From Pseudomonas guariconensis (lineage in GTDB: Bacteria > Pseudomonadota > Gammaproteobacteria > Pseudomonadales > Pseudomonadaceae): 64,000 nucleotides of DNA. Every line of letters begins with the position of its first letter. Position 1 is the first letter of the stretch. The stretch is from assembly GCF_024127895.1 (NCBI RefSeq), contig NZ_JAMYBK010000003.1, positions 62,001-126,000 of the forward strand. Direction: 5' to 3'. Below the pieces are notes generated by a model that had not been told where the DNA came from, ran no database searches, and saw only the letters and a program-made list of their open reading frames with translations. A program made the translations under genes and the position numbers. Positions 20,108 to 27,226 of this stretch are shown here, in pieces.

Positions 20108-21694
<1,587 letters not shown>

Positions 21695-22567
21695 GTGCTT
21701 GTCCTGCGGGGGTTCCAGAGGTGTATTTAGGCCCCTCTCGTGCGTTTTGGGCCAATTTCGGGCCAATTCGACTCGGGGCGGCAGCTTCTCCAGCTCCCTC
21801 CAGTCCGAGGAGGAGCTGATCCATTTCGCGTAGGTAGAGAGCAACATCTCGACGCAGTGGCTGAGCGGGTTGGCGATGAACGCGAGGTTCATTCCAGCTA
21901 TCAGGCACAGGGGTGCGTAGGTGTGGCGGGTGTCGTACTGCCGGCGTTCACGGATGTCCAGCGCCTTGGGCGCTGCTTTGAAGGGGCGGATTGTAACACT
22001 TGGCTCGTTGATCCACAGCCCACCTTTGCTTGGCTGGAAGACGAAGGGGCTGACCGGATTGGCCGATTTGGAAGCCATGCGCTTCAAGTTTGCCACTCGC
22101 CGGGCCTGGCTGACGGCATTGAGCGCCCGCTCGTTGAGCAGGATGGTTCGGTGATTCTTGGTCTTGGTGCGCTCTTGTGGCGCTCGATTGATGATGATCC
22201 GGCGTATGACTGCAGTTCGCTCCTCCAGATCGACGTCATCCCACTGAAGGCCCATTGCCTCACCAGGCCGAACCCCCGTGAAGAAGCAGAACTCGAAGAA
22301 GGCTGCGTAGATTTGGGAGTACTTGCGCAGGCTGCCGTAAAGGTGAGCAATGATCGCTTCCGCCTCGGTCCTGGTGTATGGATCGACGACCTTCTTTACG
22401 GCCTTTGGCTTGTCCAGGGAAGCAGTCGGGTTCTTGGCGATCAGCCCGTCCAGCACGGCCGTTTTGAATACGCTCGACAACTTGATGATCGCGTTTCGCT
22501 TCACACCTACTGAAGTCCACTGAATCTGCGAGATGACGCTGCGGAGCAGAGTCGTTGCGAGTGGTCG
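21695..22567 (-). pseudogene. Tyrosine-recombinase remnant reading in frame into ybiT
   Basis: About 290 codons match the middle and C-terminal catalytic part of a phage integrase. The N-terminal arm-binding domain is missing, and the frame begins directly after the stop of an upstream phage gene. Visible active-site elements are the first Arg in TGVRPGE, a Lys in RTKTKNHRT, the RH of YDTRHTY, a His in SHCVEM, and the nucleophile Tyr in STYAKW. The usual LGH motif is LSH here, and nearby residues look drifted. No stop separates it from the ybiT TTG. It is almost certainly inactive and marks one end of a former prophage or island. Confidence 0.85.
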
Positions 22568-22585
22568 AGTAAAACATGCATCGGT

Positions 22586-22756
22586 TTAAGAGAAATCTTT
22601 CATGCTTCGGGCCGAGACGAGGTGATCGGGCTCTACCTCCAGTACCTCAACTCGACCATTACGCGAGCTGGTCACCTCAATCGTGTAGCTCGCGATCGTG
22701 CCGTCGACGCGCTCAGTGTGGCCGAGGCATTTGAAGGTGAGGGTGGGTTCGGTCAT
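22586..22756 (-). pseudogene. Small phage-type gene, probably frameshifted near its 3' end
   Basis: The frame starts at ATG 22756 (tctggagcccagc upstream) and encodes 56 residues, MTEPTLTFKCLGHTERVDGT onward, with SRNGRVEVLEVEPDHLVSARSMK near its end, then stops at TAA 22586. One base out of phase, the reading continues with [13 protein letters not shown]. That looks like the natural continuation and implies loss of one A in an AAAA run at about 22608. The stop and the integrase remnant share a frame, so a deletion seems to have joined the two genes. Function unknown. Confidence 0.55.
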
Positions 22757-22792
22757 GCTGGGCTCCAGAGGCTGCCGTAGGGCTGGCCGTGT

Positions 22793-22841
22793 ATACACAT
22801 GGACCCCATTCTATAAGCTATAGAATGGGGTCCATGTGTAT
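22793..22841. repeat. Perfect 23-bp inverted repeat with 3-base loop
   Basis: The left arm 22793-22815 begins atacacatggacccc and ends ctata. The right arm 22819-22841 is its exact reverse complement, separated by agc. A 46-of-46 paired hairpin is unusual here. It overlaps no well-supported gene and sits between the small phage gene and the antitoxin gene, so it could serve as a bidirectional terminator, a cruciform, or the scar of a palindromic insertion. Confidence 0.9.
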
Positions 22842-22895
22842 GGGGCGAGTGGGAAAGATCCGGCGCTTGACCGGGCTCACTGGAGCAGGGCGAGG

Positions 22896-23198
22896 TTATG
22901 CGTGAGCAGCCTCTTGCTCCGGCACCAGTCGCACCTCAACGCGTTGGCCCAGTGCACGAGCGGCGCTGGCTAGGGTCGCCAGCGTCATGCCTGGGTCGTC
23001 TTGGTCTAGTGCGCGGTCCACTGCGGTACGACTGGTGTGCATGCGCGCAGCCAGGGCTTTCTTTGTCACCTTCTGGCTTTTCATGGCTTCAGCGATTTGC
23101 CAAGAGATGACTCGCTTGAGGGCAGCAGCGGACACTTCCTCTGCGAGACCTTGCTCTGCAAGGAAATCGTCGAAATCGGAGCCGATGTGCTGGTTCAT
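22896..23198 (-). CDS. XRE-family antitoxin (HigA-like)
   Basis: A 100-residue protein whose centre is a helix-turn-helix (KKALAARMHTSRTAVDRALDQDDPGMTLATLASAARALG). It overlaps the upstream toxin gene by four bases (ATGA), the normal toxin-first order of HigBA-type modules. The N-terminal part, MNQHIGSDFDDFLAEQGLAEEV, is acidic and would contact the toxin. It should repress its own promoter and neutralise the partner. The flanking genes are decayed phage sequence but this frame looks intact. Confidence 0.85.
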   Translation of the reverse strand: MNQHIGSDFDDFLAEQGLAEEVSAAALKRVISWQIAEAMKSQKVTKKALAARMHTSRTAVDRALDQDDPGMTLATLASAARALGQRVEVRLVPEQEAAHA

Positions 23199-23551
23199 TG
23201 CTTGTTCCTCTCTAGTGTTGCTTTGCGTTGCCTGGCGGTTTCCAAGTCAGACGCGGGTGTTTTCTGGCTCTTCTTGATGAAGCCGTGAAGCAGAACCATG
23301 ACGTTCCCGTCCACGGTGAAGAGCACGCGGGCGATGGTATCGACTAGGTTGACCCTGACCTCCCAGAGGCCTTTATCAAGCTTTCTGACAACTGGCATTC
23401 CGATTGGCCAGCCGATCTGGACCGTTTTGATTTCTGTTCCGATCATCCGCTTGTGATCGCGAGGCAGGTCGGTCAGCCATTCGCGCACCGGCTCATTGCC
23501 CGCTTCCGTGCGATAAAAACTGACGTGCAATGTTGGTGGGATTTCACTCAT
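23195..23551 (-). CDS. RelE/HigB-type toxin (Gp49-like)
   Basis: A 118-residue basic protein of the phage-derived Gp49/HigB-like group. It has the pattern SFYRTEAGNEPVREWLTDLP, the middle VRKLDKGLWEVRVNL and LFTVDGNVMVLLHGFIKKSQKTP, which is the typical beta-sheet and C-terminal FxKKxxKTP end of ribosome-dependent mRNA interferases. The antitoxin gene follows with a 4-base overlap. An AT-rich promoter region with a tgagtgtaccaaaaatgg stretch lies just upstream of the ATG (about 23552-23575). Confidence 0.87.
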   Translation of the reverse strand: MSEIPPTLHVSFYRTEAGNEPVREWLTDLPRDHKRMIGTEIKTVQIGWPIGMPVVRKLDKGLWEVRVNLVDTIARVLFTVDGNVMVLLHGFIKKSQKTPASDLETARQRKATLERNKQ

Positions 23552-23845
23552 GTGTTGAGTGTACCAAAAATGGTGCGTTACGCAACGTTCGGCGGGAGTT
23601 CGTCAAGGATATGGGTGGATTCGGCAGGAGCAGGGCGGCCCGGCGCTTGGCCGGGCTTGGGGTTACCGGAAATTTCTCTCGACAATCAGGTCGTAACAGC
23701 GGCGAGCGACGGTCGCGAAGTACAGGCCGCTTAGCCAGAGCAGACCTACAAAGCCAGCGGCAAGCAATGCACCGAGGCTTTGTCCACCTCCGGTCCGAAA
23801 GGACGGCGGTGGCAGGCTCGGGTCGCTCCCGAAAGTGAACGCGAC
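23552..23845. other. Gap in the mobile remnant, possibly holding a gene tail
   Basis: The first 30 bases are the toxin promoter. A minus-strand frame ends at TAA 23663-23665 and its last 55 codons read like a real protein end: GALLAAGFVGLLWLSGLYFA as a membrane segment, then RRCYDLIVERNFR. No start codon with a ribosome site is visible, so it may be the surviving 3' part of a phage gene. Confidence 0.35.
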
Positions 23846-24082
23846 ATGGCCAGCCCTAGCCAGGCCGATGCTGATCCGACCATCCAGCTGGCCGACGAGA
23901 TCATGGCTCGCGTTGAGGATATTCGGCTGCCAACGGGGGCGCTGGACAATGAAGGACTGCCGGTCACTGTCTCTGCCCGCGAGCTGCTGGTCCAGGCCGA
24001 CGAAAACATCAAGGCTGCCCAGCAGGATGCCCGAGGATTAGCCGCTGCCGCCGCCTGCTTCCTGCAGCGTGGTTTAGACTGA
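23846..24082 (+). CDS. Small phage-type protein of unknown function
   Basis: A 78-residue acidic, Ala-rich protein, MASPSQADADPTIQLADEIM onward, ending in a predicted helix NIKAAQQDARGLAAAAACFLQRG. Composition and size resemble small prophage or island proteins with helical ends. The ATG at 23846 is preferred over 23780 because the residues before it look non-coding. The ribosome site is weak. Function not recognised. An opposite-strand frame overlaps it, so one of the two is spurious. Confidence 0.5.
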   Translation: MASPSQADADPTIQLADEIMARVEDIRLPTGALDNEGLPVTVSARELLVQADENIKAAQQDARGLAAAAACFLQRGLD

Positions 24083-24116
24083 GCTCAATCTGCCACCACA
24101 ATGAGAAGAAACCATC

Positions 24117-24488
24117 ATGAAATGGCTTCCGCTGCTAATGCTCCCGCTCATGGTGTCCGGGTGCGCTACGACCGGTAAATATGAGAAGGTTCTACAAAGC
24201 TGGGTTGGCTCTAGTGAGCTGGATTTGGTGCGAAGCTGGGGGCCGCCGCAGCAAACATATGAAGCAAGTGACAGGAAATTTCTGATCTACTCGAGTAGCA
24301 ATGACATGTATCTGCCAGGTAGTGCGCCTACGTACCAGACCACGGTCGTGGGCAACACCGCATACACCAACTCGTATGGCGGAACCCCCGCTATGAATAT
24401 TCAGCTGTCCTGCACCACTACATTTGAGATCACCGCCGATGTCATTACCAGCTGGCAGTGGCGGGGTAACAATTGCGTATCCAGGTAG
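24117..24488 (+). CDS. Small outer-membrane-type lipoprotein
   Basis: A 123-residue protein with a lipoprotein signal peptide: basic start, hydrophobic run LPLLMLPLMVSG, and lipobox VSGC with Cys at residue 16. The mature part has an SSELDLVRSWGPPQQTY segment, a repeated Tyr/Ser-rich middle and two Cys (LSCTTT and NNCVSR) that may pair. The fold resembles small SmpA/OmlA-like lipoproteins in its WGPPQ turn, but this is a weak resemblance. A gaagaaa stretch precedes the ATG. GC content is lower than in the core genes, in line with acquired DNA. Confidence 0.75.
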   Translation: MKWLPLLMLPLMVSGCATTGKYEKVLQSWVGSSELDLVRSWGPPQQTYEASDRKFLIYSSSNDMYLPGSAPTYQTTVVGNTAYTNSYGGTPAMNIQLSCTTTFEITADVITSWQWRGNNCVSR

Positions 24489-24520
24489 CTAAATAGTTGG
24501 GAAACCGTCTACTTCCGACC

Positions 24521-24557
24521 CATAGGCTTGCCCCATCCACAAAGGAGCAAGCCTATG
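24521..24557 (+). promoter_or_regulatory. Hairpin enclosing a ribosome-binding site and start codon
   Basis: The arms cataggcttgc (24521-24531) and gcaagcctatg (24547-24557) are perfectly complementary over 11 bp. The loop contains aaagga, and the right arm ends in the ATG of a 31-codon frame. The fold would bury the start codon while exposing the purine run in the loop, a layout that could gate translation. Confidence 0.55.
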
Positions 24558-24650
24558 CGTTTCGAATGCATCAAGGCTGTCGTTCAGGCAGCTGTACCAC
24601 ACTTTCTGACCCTTCTCTTGTCCGCGCCCCATCGCTGGGCGCCGCAGTAG
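24555..24650 (+). CDS. 31-residue open frame behind a hairpin
   Basis: The frame ATG 24555 to TAG 24650 encodes 31 residues starting MRFECIKAVVQAAVPHF and ending with HRWAPQ. An aaggag lies eight bases upstream. It contains a short hydrophobic stretch (VPHFLTLLLSAP). It precedes the truncated HNH gene, whose ribosome site (aggagg) overlaps its stop codon, so coupling is likely. It could be a small membrane peptide or a leader. No family recognised. Confidence 0.4.
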   Translation: MRFECIKAVVQAAVPHFLTLLLSAPHRWAPQ

Positions 24651-24662
24651 GAGGCCGTTGAT

Positions 24663-24776
24663 ATGTTGACCGCACAACGCCTGCGCGAACTCCTGCACTA
24701 CGACCCCATCACTGGCATTTTCACTAACATCGCTCCGCGCAAGAAGGTGGTGGTGGGCAGTGTTGCTGGATCAGGT
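24663..24776 (+). pseudogene. HNH endonuclease, N-terminal fragment
   Basis: From ATG 24663 (taggagg upstream) the first 38 codons, MLTAQRLRELLHYDPITGIF then TNIAPRKKVVVGSVAGSG, match the start of phage HNH homing-type endonucleases, in which this segment is followed by a Tyr/Gly-rich strand and the HNH core. Here the reading passes into unrelated sequence after GSG (about 24776) and ends at 24893 with no His-Asn-His residues. The gene is therefore truncated, probably by the rearrangement that brought in the IS5-type end. Confidence 0.65.
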
Positions 24777-24889
24777 GCGCTATTACCAGAGCGAAGCTGG
24801 GGGGCGCTGCGTCTCTCCCGGCCTGGTCAAGGGGATAGCCACGGTGACGGTGAGTTATCAGTGAAATTTGTCAAATGTCACTGGCAAGT

Positions 24890-25153
24890 TTAATAGGGCG
24901 ATAGGCATGGATGGAGGAAGGCACTTGCCTGTCGTAGACACCGCCGCCAGCAGGCTAGCGTGACCATTGCGGCATAGCTTTTCGCAAGCTTGCAGTAACG
25001 GGTTGCCAGGCGGCGATGCTCCTTCAGCCAGCCGAACAGCCGCTCGATAACGTTCCGTTCCCTGTAACCGCTTCGTCCTGTTTTCTGCCACATCGGCACG
25101 AGACGAGGTGGTCGAACGTATCTATTGCGTTCGGCGCGTCGCCGGCTAGGCGT
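24890..25153 (-). mobile_element. IS5-family transposase, C-terminal remnant
   Basis: About 88 codons ending at TAA 24890 carry the C-terminal part of a DDE transposase: RERNVIERLFGWLKEHRRLATRY contains the catalytic Glu in the Y-(2)-R-(3)-E context, followed by KLAKSYAAMVTLACWRRCLRQ. The N-terminal Asp-containing parts are missing and the reading upstream of about 25153 is not coding. I could not find a matching pair of terminal inverted repeats. It is a dead fragment that forms the right border of the mobile remnant. Confidence 0.8.
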
Positions 25154-25239
25154 TGCAACGACGGCCCAGGCCATCACCATCGCCATTGGCAACGGGGATC
25201 TGGAGCGCTGAGCAGGCAAGCAGGGCTGCTGAGTCGCTT

Positions 25240-25674
25240 TCAGGCTTCGATGGAGGAATGATGGCCGGTAATCAGCCACTGCTGTTCGATCCGCTCGAAG
25301 GTGAAGAGAAAGCGGGCGGGCACGATCCGCTGCTCGCCCGCCTCGCGGAATACGAACGTGTACTGGCCGCCGACGACCACGGTGCCCAGCTTGCGGCTGA
25401 CGCGTTTCTTGAAGAAGCGGATGTCGCAGACCAGCCCTTCGTTGGCGAAGAAACTTTCGAAATAACTGCGCCGGCTATCGTCGCAGTCGCGGACCTCGTT
25501 GGACAGGGTCGGTACAAGGATCGCGTCCGGGGCGTAAAGCGCCAGGACTTTGTCCACATCCCGCGAGGCCACGGTGGCAGCCCATCGATAGAGCGCAGCC
25601 TTGGCGCCTGCCAGGCAGGCCAGTTCGACGTCGGCGTAGGGCTGAGTGTTGGCTGAGGTTTGGGCTTCATTCAT
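25240..25674 (-). CDS. SgcJ/EcaC-type NTF2-fold protein
   Basis: A 144-residue protein with an NTF2-like (DUF4440) cone fold: AALYRWAATVASRDVDKVLALYAPDAILVPTLSNEVR is the family hallmark, followed by strands VVGGQYTFVF and PARFLFTFERIEQQWLITGHHSS. Members are small enzymes or binding proteins of mostly unknown substrate. The ATG at 25674 is preferred to the GTG five codons earlier, since caggtatcc serves as its ribosome site. It is divergent from the dihydroorotase block across a Zur-like operator, so it may also answer to zinc. Confidence 0.85.
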   Translation of the reverse strand: MNEAQTSANTQPYADVELACLAGAKAALYRWAATVASRDVDKVLALYAPDAILVPTLSNEVRDCDDSRRSYFESFFANEGLVCDIRFFKKRVSRKLGTVVVGGQYTFVFREAGEQRIVPARFLFTFERIEQQWLITGHHSSIEA

Positions 25675-25719
25675 GGCGGATACCTGCACAGGCGGAAAGC
25701 GGTGGTCTATTTTTAATTT

Positions 25720-25739
25720 ATGTTACGTTATAACGAAAT
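25720..25739. promoter_or_regulatory. Zur-like operator between the SgcJ-type gene and the pyrC paralogue
   Basis: The bases atgttacgttataacgaaat contain a perfect 10-bp palindrome, cgttataacg. They match the element before rpmJ (27441-27460) at 17 of 20 positions. AT-rich palindromes of the GTTAT-AAC kind are typical Zur sites in proteobacteria, and both downstream genes are known classes of zinc-starvation paralogues. Confidence 0.75.
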
Positions 25740-25757
25740 TATTCAGGACGCCATCCC

Positions 25758-25880
25758 ATGTTTTCAATGCTCGAACAGGTAGCAGCAGGCCCCCGCTTTG
25801 TCGGCCATATCGGCCGTCGAAGCGGCTTTTACAACGTCATCCAGGCCGATCACGTTGTGGGGAGCGGGGTGAAGGCATGA
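25758..25880 (+). CDS. 40-residue frame coupled to the dihydroorotase paralogue
   Basis: ATG 25758 has caggacgc upstream and encodes 40 residues (MFSMLEQVAAGPRFVGHIGR onward) ending ADHVVGSGVKA. Its TGA overlaps the ATG of the next gene in ATGA, so ribosomes translating it would feed the dihydroorotase start. It follows the Zur-like operator directly. No known family is recognised. It may be a leader, or a remnant of a longer protein. Confidence 0.45.
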   Translation: MFSMLEQVAAGPRFVGHIGRRSGFYNVIQADHVVGSGVKA

Positions 25881-27226
25881 GTAGCGTCATCATTCGCAAC
25901 GCTCGCCTGGTCAACGAAGGGGCGGTCGAGGATGCCGATGTACTGGTCGTCCACGGCCGGATCGAAAAGATCGGCCGCAGTATCGAAGGCATCAATGCAT
26001 CCACTGAAATCGATGCCTGTGGCCAGTGGCTCGTGCCCGGCATGATCGATGATCAAGTGCATTTCCGCGAGCCTGGCGCTGCGCACAAGGGGACGATCGC
26101 CAGTGAATCGCGCGCAGCGGTCGCCGGAGGCATTACCAGTTTCATGGACATGCCCAACACCAGCCCACCCACCCTGGACCTTGCCGCGCTGCAGGAGAAA
26201 AAAGCGCGCGCCGCCGCGACCTCCGTTGCCAACTACGGTTTTCACTTCGGGGTAAGCAAGGACAACCTCGATATCGTGGCATCGCTCGATCCAGGTTCCG
26301 TGGCGGGGGTGAAGGTGTTCATGGGGGCATCCACCGGGGACATGCTGGTGGATGACCCGAGAACCCTCGAACGGCTGTTCGCCAACGTGCCGACGATCCT
26401 GTTGGCGCATTGCGAGCACACGCCGTCGATCCTGGCCAACGAGGCGCGACTGCGCGAGCGATACGGTGATTTCATCCCACCGGCCATGCACCCACTCATT
26501 CGGGACGCTGCCGCGTGCCTACGTTCCTCGACACTGGCCGTTCAACTTGCCAGGCAATTCGGCACCCGCTTGCACGTGCTGCACCTGACCACAGCACAGG
26601 AACTGCAACTGTTCGAACCTGGCCCCGTGGCAGGGAAGCGGATCACCGCGGAAGTGTGCGTGCATCATCTGCTGTTCGATGACCGCGACTATGCAAGCCT
26701 CGGGCACCTGATCAAATGCAACCCCGCCATCAAGACCCGGGCAGACCGCGATGCCCTGCGCCAGGCGCTGCAGTGCGACCGTATCGATGTCATCGGGACC
26801 GATCATGCACCGCACACACTGACGCAGAAGCAACGCTCCTACGCGTTGGCGCCCGCTGGATTGCCGCTGGTCCAGCATGCATTACCGGCACTGTTGGAGT
26901 TGGTCGAGGAGGGCGTGCTGTCGGTTGCCCAACTGGTGCGCAAGACCAGTCACTCGGTCGCTGACCTGTTCGCAATCCAGGGCAGGGGATATTTGCGCGA
27001 AGGCTACTGGGCAGACCTGGTCTTGATCGAACGCCTGCCCGAGCCTCGGGCCGTCACCCTCGATCCGGTGCTGGCCCACTGTCAGTGGACGCCGTTCATC
27101 CAGCATCGGTTTCATCATCGGGTGACCACCACCCTGGTGTCCGGTCAGCTTGCCTGGCATGGCGGCCGGGTGGTCGACAGCTGCCAGGGGTTGCCGTTGG
27201 TGTTCCACTCGCAACGGTCTGGTTGA
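25877..27226 (+). CDS. pyrC: Dihydroorotase paralogue of the zinc-starvation type
   Basis: A 449-residue amidohydrolase-fold protein of class I dihydroorotases. The first metal motif reads DDQVHFREPG, where most zinc enzymes have D-x-H-x-H, so Gln replaces the first His. Other landmarks are present: the VKVFMGASTG Lys strand, LAHCEHTP, LHVLHLTTAQE and VIGTDHAPHT. The reaction would be cyclisation of carbamoyl-aspartate to dihydroorotate in pyrimidine synthesis. Behind a Zur-like operator, it is best read as the backup enzyme used when zinc is scarce. The start is the ATG overlapping the preceding frame. Confidence 0.88.
   Translation: MSSVIIRNARLVNEGAVEDADVLVVHGRIEKIGRSIEGINASTEIDACGQWLVPGMIDDQVHFREPGAAHKGTIASESRAAVAGGITSFMDMPNTSPPTLDLAALQEKKARAAATSVANYGFHFGVSKDNLDIVASLDPGSVAGVKVFMGASTGDMLVDDPRTLERLFANVPTILLAHCEHTPSILANEARLRERYGDFIPPAMHPLIRDAAACLRSSTLAVQLARQFGTRLHVLHLTTAQELQLFEPGPVAGKRITAEVCVHHLLFDDRDYASLGHLIKCNPAIKTRADRDALRQALQCDRIDVIGTDHAPHTLTQKQRSYALAPAGLPLVQHALPALLELVEEGVLSVAQLVRKTSHSVADLFAIQGRGYLREGYWADLVLIERLPEPRAVTLDPVLAHCQWTPFIQHRFHHRVTTTLVSGQLAWHGGRVVDSCQGLPLVFHSQRSG

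Follow-up and report, generated by a model that had tools for sequence, protein, structure and literature searches.

A conserved phage control hairpin, probably of the terminator or insulator type, upstream of a small accessory gene in Pseudomonas

The palindrome and its surroundings

The window, the whole 64,000-nucleotide stretch of Pseudomonas guariconensis DNA that was analysed, contains what looks like a prophage remnant in which a palindrome lies between a HigA-like antitoxin gene and a small phage open reading frame, both read on the minus strand. The features of this region are as follows.

22586-22756, minus strand: small phage gene that follows the hairpin, 56 amino acids, shortened relative to the approximately 87 of most relatives
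22757-22792, minus strand: 36-nt tail from the hairpin to the start codon, with a ribosome-binding site (GGAG, 22763-22766) assigned by eye
22793-22841, minus strand: perfect palindrome with loop AGC at 22816-22818, from the repeat search and covariance model
22804-22830, no strand assigned: conserved core CCCCATTCTATA-nnn-TATAGAATGGGG, with a central ATA-nnn-TAT that is invariant in 12 of 12 aligned copies
22853-22878, minus strand: imperfect terminator-like stem after higA, aligned by eye with GCCCGGCCAAGCGCCGGGCTTTT in locus L026
22896-23198, minus strand: HigA-like antitoxin, with an HTH_37 match just under the cut-off (E = 1.1e-5)
23195-23551, minus strand: HigB-like toxin of the Gp49 family (E = 3.4e-22)

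The repeat search recovers the two arms (22793-22815 and 22819-22841) exactly as the initial annotation gave them, with all 23 nucleotides of each complementary (23/23, 100%) across 3 nt. A 49-base palindrome of this kind is far beyond chance. The second-best perfect arms in the 64-kb window are 12 long, the longest in 12 Markov simulations of 64 kb are 9-11, and about 8e-8 arms of at least 23 (loops 0-10) are expected per 64 kb, in agreement with the earlier argument that random or decaying DNA would not keep such a sequence; the palindrome has been kept, and it is phage-borne. It is present once in its own genome. A covariance model that was built with the window copy included scores this copy at 79.1 bits on the minus strand. 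The assembly fold-back that had been named as a possible artefact is ruled out by copies in other genomes and in phage contigs.

Also in the window, an open reading frame at 20108-22504 joins an integrase domain in frame to an ABC-transporter-type ATPase, which we take to be EttA-like. This fusion suggests a prophage insertion at the 5' end of the ATPase gene.

A family of hairpins

The palindrome belongs to a family with the form [C]ATACACA-n3/4-CCCCATTCTATA-nnn-TATAGAATGGGG-n3/4-TGTGTAT[G], and a one-off, recent inverted duplication, as had been suggested, is consequently unsupported. In a first homology search, a 341-base stretch around the palindrome had matches in 9 of 298 same-genus genomes, and some of these matches spanned the palindrome itself. 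Sequence extraction revealed the hairpin in three genomes (G209, G188 and G269) as well as in phage record MT836437, and pattern scanning brought in further copies from five phage contigs and from Pseudomonas marginalis. When up to three mismatches are allowed, the pattern occurs in 10 of the 298 genomes, of which four (G000, G188, G209 and G269) carry family members and six have matches that look unrelated. An exact 18-mer of the window variant, the first one used, found 0 viral stretches. The core pattern is present in 5 viral stretches, or 6 with a wider pattern, and in two genome contigs, one from P. marginalis and one from Yersinia that has an 11-bp arm only and looks unrelated. Patterns for one arm gave 3 and 1 stretches, every one a contig with the small gene. 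On these results a dispersed repeat was rejected.

The covariance-model search of 398 genomes gave matches at E = 0.001 in 57, and 30 loci were read among the matches in these 57 genomes, with those in the remaining genomes left out. Strong matches (at least 64 bits, on the strand of the gene) occur in 6 of the 398 (G000, G188, G209, G269, G303 and G363), in one place per genome and always at the small gene. One weaker locus (45.7 bits) was found in G318. When the model was run on a set of 54 loci that did not include this one, it detected no further copies except weak matches in L028, L074 and L095. The G318 locus (L109, 1429-1567) has two hairpins in tandem that share the core, and one of them carries a symmetric CCGC/GCGG change; the pair follows a terminator and precedes a lipoprotein-like gene, and the element is therefore nearly, yet not wholly, bound to one gene. 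Both sites recur in an IMG/VR contig (L134), which probably represents the same phage. In the literature searched, words for the motif occur only in papers that are unrelated by title.

Three other identities were considered and set aside. Rfam searches found no family at the hairpin within window positions 21700-25900, up to E = 5, or at gathering score in four loci. The palindrome is not an operator of the type II toxin-antitoxin operon higBA, which is the control site that the initial annotation had offered, since it lies 3' of higA rather than 5' of the operon, and the same hairpin occurs beside other upstream genes; by eye, higBA adjoins the hairpin only in the window among 12 hairpin neighborhoods. 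A telomere-resolution site was evaluated by comparison with stretches of N15, phiKO2 and PY54. The telRL palindromes of N15 and phiKO2 are also long and loosely similar in their letters, but they have no unpaired center, whereas the symmetry of the window palindrome is broken by three central bases. Shuffle p-values per half are 0.075-0.36 for N15, 0.021-0.094 for phiKO2 and 0.54-0.73 for PY54, so that 1 of 15 uncorrected half-comparisons falls below 0.05 (p = 0.021). Protelomerase (PF16684) was found in 0 of 9 genomes or records, including three possibly fragmentary virus records, and as far as telomere resolution is concerned the recombination or replication signal proposed earlier gains no support.

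Position upstream of the small gene

Searches for the small gene located it at 38 viral loci and, within the genus, in 14 of 398 genomes. Beyond the genus, it occurs in 1 of 194 genomes of the order, namely its own genome, and among relatives of G363 it occurs in 5 of 293, all within one genus of 81. The hairpin is carried by 13 of 48 distinct upstream regions of this gene that were compared. This count combines 12 labelled rows with L025, which differs from L021 by a one-base deletion and which the script had placed in the other group; it is favorable to the hairpin in that L022 entered through the hairpin pattern alone, and at three of the 48 (L074, L090 and L091) the small gene is present in pieces only. 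The small gene also occurs in a second phage record, MT836498, which was left out of the reading.

From the end of the hairpin to the start codon is 31-46 bp in 13 loci (the window, L021, L022, L023, L025, L026, L027, L044, L051, L079, L081, L085 and L092), with the distance in L025, L026 and L044 measured from the core only. The 36-nt tail in the window resembles those of L092 and L026, and the region upstream of the small gene in G303 is that of the P. marginalis locus, an identity on which the assignment of the searched genus to Pseudomonas is based. Related prophages, which had been suggested as a check, thus have the hairpin at the same spot.

The genes upstream of the hairpin are of several kinds, and one and the same kind can occur with or without it. 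One type, which looks like a membrane protein, is separated from the small gene by 82-85 nt from stop to start in the five loci with a hairpin (L021, L022, L025, L079 and L085) and by 14-15 nt in the four loci without (L046, L055, L063 and L066). A second type has the hairpin in L027 and L081 and lacks it in L042, L047 and L084; by eye, L047 and L084 have the look of deletion scars. The same upstream gene is shared by L023, which has the hairpin, and L071, which has a plain terminator instead. On a gene tree with 45 rows, 12 of them with the hairpin, its presence needs 11 changes against a mean of 10.9 for shuffled labels (352 of 500 shuffles as low) and is therefore unclustered, on a tree that has few columns and weak support. 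Well-supported branches alone force four changes of hairpin state.

Two other features of these loci were seen by eye. Six of them (L048, L050, L052, L054, L056 and L062) have no hairpin and share a different conserved leader of approximately 70 nt. The small gene of L051 looks mosaic, with an N-terminal part like one clade and a C-terminal part like another, which may be a sign of recombination.

Pairing and sequence conservation

Pairing was evaluated in 12 aligned copies against 500 shuffles. Several of these copies are close relatives, and kinship among rows can raise values above those of shuffles even where no structure exists. Paired bases fill 93.6% of cells (0 of 500 shuffles), nine cells are double-changed (0/500) in four pairs (7/500), the covariation score is 0.120 (0/500), and there are eight further pair types (49/500). 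The n3/4 bases vary among copies as AAG/CTT, TGGA/TCCA, TAGA/TCTA and TAT/ATA, plus one change in an outer pair, and complementarity is mostly kept, with at least one broken pair in L021, L026, L044, L051, L079, L081 and L085. The best copies have 21-23 perfect pairs, and folding z-scores range from -7.3 to -8.1 in the four copies that were folded. The inner 12 bp, in contrast to the n3/4 bases, hardly vary. These paired changes support symmetry but are no proof of an RNA structure, because template switching also yields symmetric change. In 6 of 12 copies the two outer bases of the loop complement each other, which is a weak hint of symmetry at the level of DNA.

Long palindromes as probable terminators in the genus

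The initial annotation had passed over a terminator on the ground that the palindrome is longer than ordinary ones. This distinction holds poorly in Pseudomonas, where the other 23 genome loci read from the covariance-model search (L110-L132) have palindromes whose arms span 16-21 bp, at times with a mismatch, and whose flanks are mostly A-rich and T-rich; one example is built as AAACACAAAACCCCATGA-nnnn-TCATGGGGTTTTGTGTTT. Pfam searches on chosen open reading frames in 4 of the 23 loci gave matches on both sides in three (L111, L114 and L118), all between convergent genes, but not in the fourth (L115). These three palindromes are probably bidirectional terminators, and the dismissal by length was premature. 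A strand census of the 23 palindromes from naive open reading frames (6 divergent, 11 tandem, 5 convergent and 1 unclear) does not favor a convergent arrangement and was set aside because of shadow frames.

The phage hairpin shares with these three palindromes a C-rich/G-rich anchor, an A-rich left flank and a T-rich right flank, and it is like them in arm and loop size (16-21-bp arms and a 3-4-nt loop in the latter). It differs from them in that it lies 5' of a gene instead of between convergent genes, has a nearly fixed inner sequence, and is followed by a weaker T-tract, which is weakest in the window copy. In Pseudomonas, a long and nearly perfect palindrome can thus be an ordinary terminator-type signal, and such sequences should be interpreted with this in mind.

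Function of the hairpin

The hairpin is a real, conserved phage control element that is probably of the terminator or insulator type. In its specific form, as a symmetric, two-way terminator or insulator that delimits a cassette with a phage accessory gene on its 5' side, this is our tentative preference and is held with reserve. The hairpin would be a cis-acting transcription-control element that marks the 5' border of a small accessory-gene ("moron") cassette. RNA made across the palindrome in either direction would fold into an extended stem-loop with a CCCC/GGGG closure and a T-rich sequence behind it, and RNA polymerase would be released at this combination. The small gene would thereby be shielded from its neighbors, chiefly from antisense transcription. 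The conservation of the element, its position, the paired changes in its outer arms, the terminator-like build of 8 of 12 hairpin loci and the plain terminators at the equivalent spot in two relatives are shown, and from these we infer termination and this shielding role.

The 12-bp core stem, closed by CCCC/GGGG and capped by a 3-nt loop, provides the short-looped, GC-anchored stem of a terminator. A terminator definition is passed on at least one strand by 8 of 12 hairpin loci, compared with 14 of 480 letter-shuffled upstream regions and 4 of 35 hairpin-free regions; the window, L092, L044 and L051 fail it, and separate terminator scans did not flag the hairpin copies in the window, L092 and L026. 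Two loci without the hairpin (L071 and L078) have an antisense-direction terminator 46-47 bp before the start codon, which is the same spot that the hairpin occupies elsewhere. One copy in L109 is flagged as terminator-like, and by eye a terminator-like stem follows the stop codon of the small gene in several loci. In L026, a stem like that at 22853-22878 precedes the hairpin, and by eye it is decayed in the window; no terminator scan flagged it in either locus. The window copy has at most three T in 8 bases on either side, which bears out the earlier remark that it lacks a T-run. Given the prophage remnant around it, the truncated gene that follows and this poor T-tract, the window copy is probably a weak or dead remnant.

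Besides the copies that fail these tests, further observations count against a terminator. The inner 12 bp are nearly fixed even though a terminator needs no fixed sequence, and in L109 a flagged terminator is already present ahead of the hairpins. In L092 the hairpin separates two divergent genes whose start codons are 18 and 36 nt away, so that promoters would not fit in if the hairpin did nothing but terminate. The arrangements in L092 and L109 and the invariant center could be accommodated if the hairpin were a dyad-symmetric promoter or operator, at which RNA polymerase or a dimeric regulator binds DNA and from which transcription proceeds towards the small gene and perhaps both ways. Bidirectional promoters with a shared -10 element have been described (PMC10268837, PMC12825309); they have an odd-centered dyad in which an A and a T face each other at the center at a distance of three bases, and divergent start sites 7-25 bp apart (PMC10268837). 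The invariant ATA-nnn-TAT has this same A-nnn-T geometry (PMC10268837). The hairpin stands alone between the divergent start codons of L092, the left gene of which resembles a gene in L026 by eye. It also follows a flagged terminator in L109, so that the gene beyond must have its own promoter. Furthermore, the hairpin lies within a narrow range of distances from the start codon and is missing where the small gene starts 14-15 nt past an upstream stop. However, no -10/-35 pair was found on both strands in the four regions scanned, which have the TAnnnT center only; sigma-70 matches number 0 of 4, and no -35-like hexamer is visible by eye. The symmetry is also far longer and more perfect than in the shared -10 promoters. 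A promoter would have no need of paired changes in the outer arms, and the strong likeness to terminators also speaks against it. We therefore regard a promoter or operator as possible but somewhat doubtful. The two functions are not mutually exclusive.

The 21-23 perfect pairs of the best copies, the paired changes, and the location of the hairpin after co-directional genes in several loci are also compatible with a role in the mRNA leader of the small gene, where the hairpin would serve RNA processing or stabilization, for instance as a site for RNase III. This is improbable, as there is little room for a promoter upstream of the hairpin in L092 or after the terminator in L109, and the inner sequence is conserved beyond what pairing requires. 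An element that inserts itself before phage genes as a selfish or mobile palindrome, or one that is symmetric through template switching only, could explain why loci with one and the same upstream gene differ in the hairpin and in their spacing, why its presence is scattered on the gene tree, and why L109 has two copies. Against this, the strong matches occupy one place per genome at the same small gene, with the weaker G318 locus in addition; no consistent target duplication is visible by eye, and L047 and L084 look like deletion scars and not like empty sites. We consider this explanation very unlikely.

The small protein and implications

In most relatives the protein has approximately 87 amino acids and begins MTEPTLTFKCLGHT. 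It matches no Pfam family at E = 0.001, and the matches that appear when the limit is raised to E = 10 are weak and unrelated. PHROGs matches are likewise weak and do not agree, with 3 of 29 members matching DNA primase and 4 an isomerase family. AlphaFold2 modelling with 29 phage homologues predicts three strands followed by helices, with a pLDDT of 85. Among viral models, the two best Foldseek matches are to a DNA primase from a phage and to a Toprim protein (TM-scores on the query 0.73 and 0.72, rmsd 1.8 and 2.2, E = 0.022), and a DUF927 protein appears at rank 46. Among PDB entries ranked by E-value, the first two are tyrosine phosphatases that fit poorly (TM-score 0.35), and the third is 8tch, the SaPIBov1 replication initiator helicase (TM-score 0.61), which presumably carries a DUF927-type domain. 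The same entry is first with VIA-align (Z = 7.0 over 79 residues; next 5.3), a level that according to the tool may mean a common arrangement only. The predicted fold therefore resembles a domain of phage and satellite replication helicases as a lead, given that no match passes E = 0.001 and that the sequence searches are weak.

If this resemblance is true, a stand-alone helicase domain encoded by a phage accessory gene could interfere with the replication of satellites or rival phages. A more elaborate scheme, in which a symmetric promoter or operator serves both as a two-way start signal and as the cassette border, with selection acting on the symmetry of the DNA and with the driven gene encoding a helicase domain that jams satellites or rival phages, seems to us a long shot.

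The hairpin is a sequence-defined control element at the border of a phage accessory gene, and it is scattered over the tree of that gene. It may consequently offer a testable case of how such genes gain independence from phage operons or come to be joined with them.
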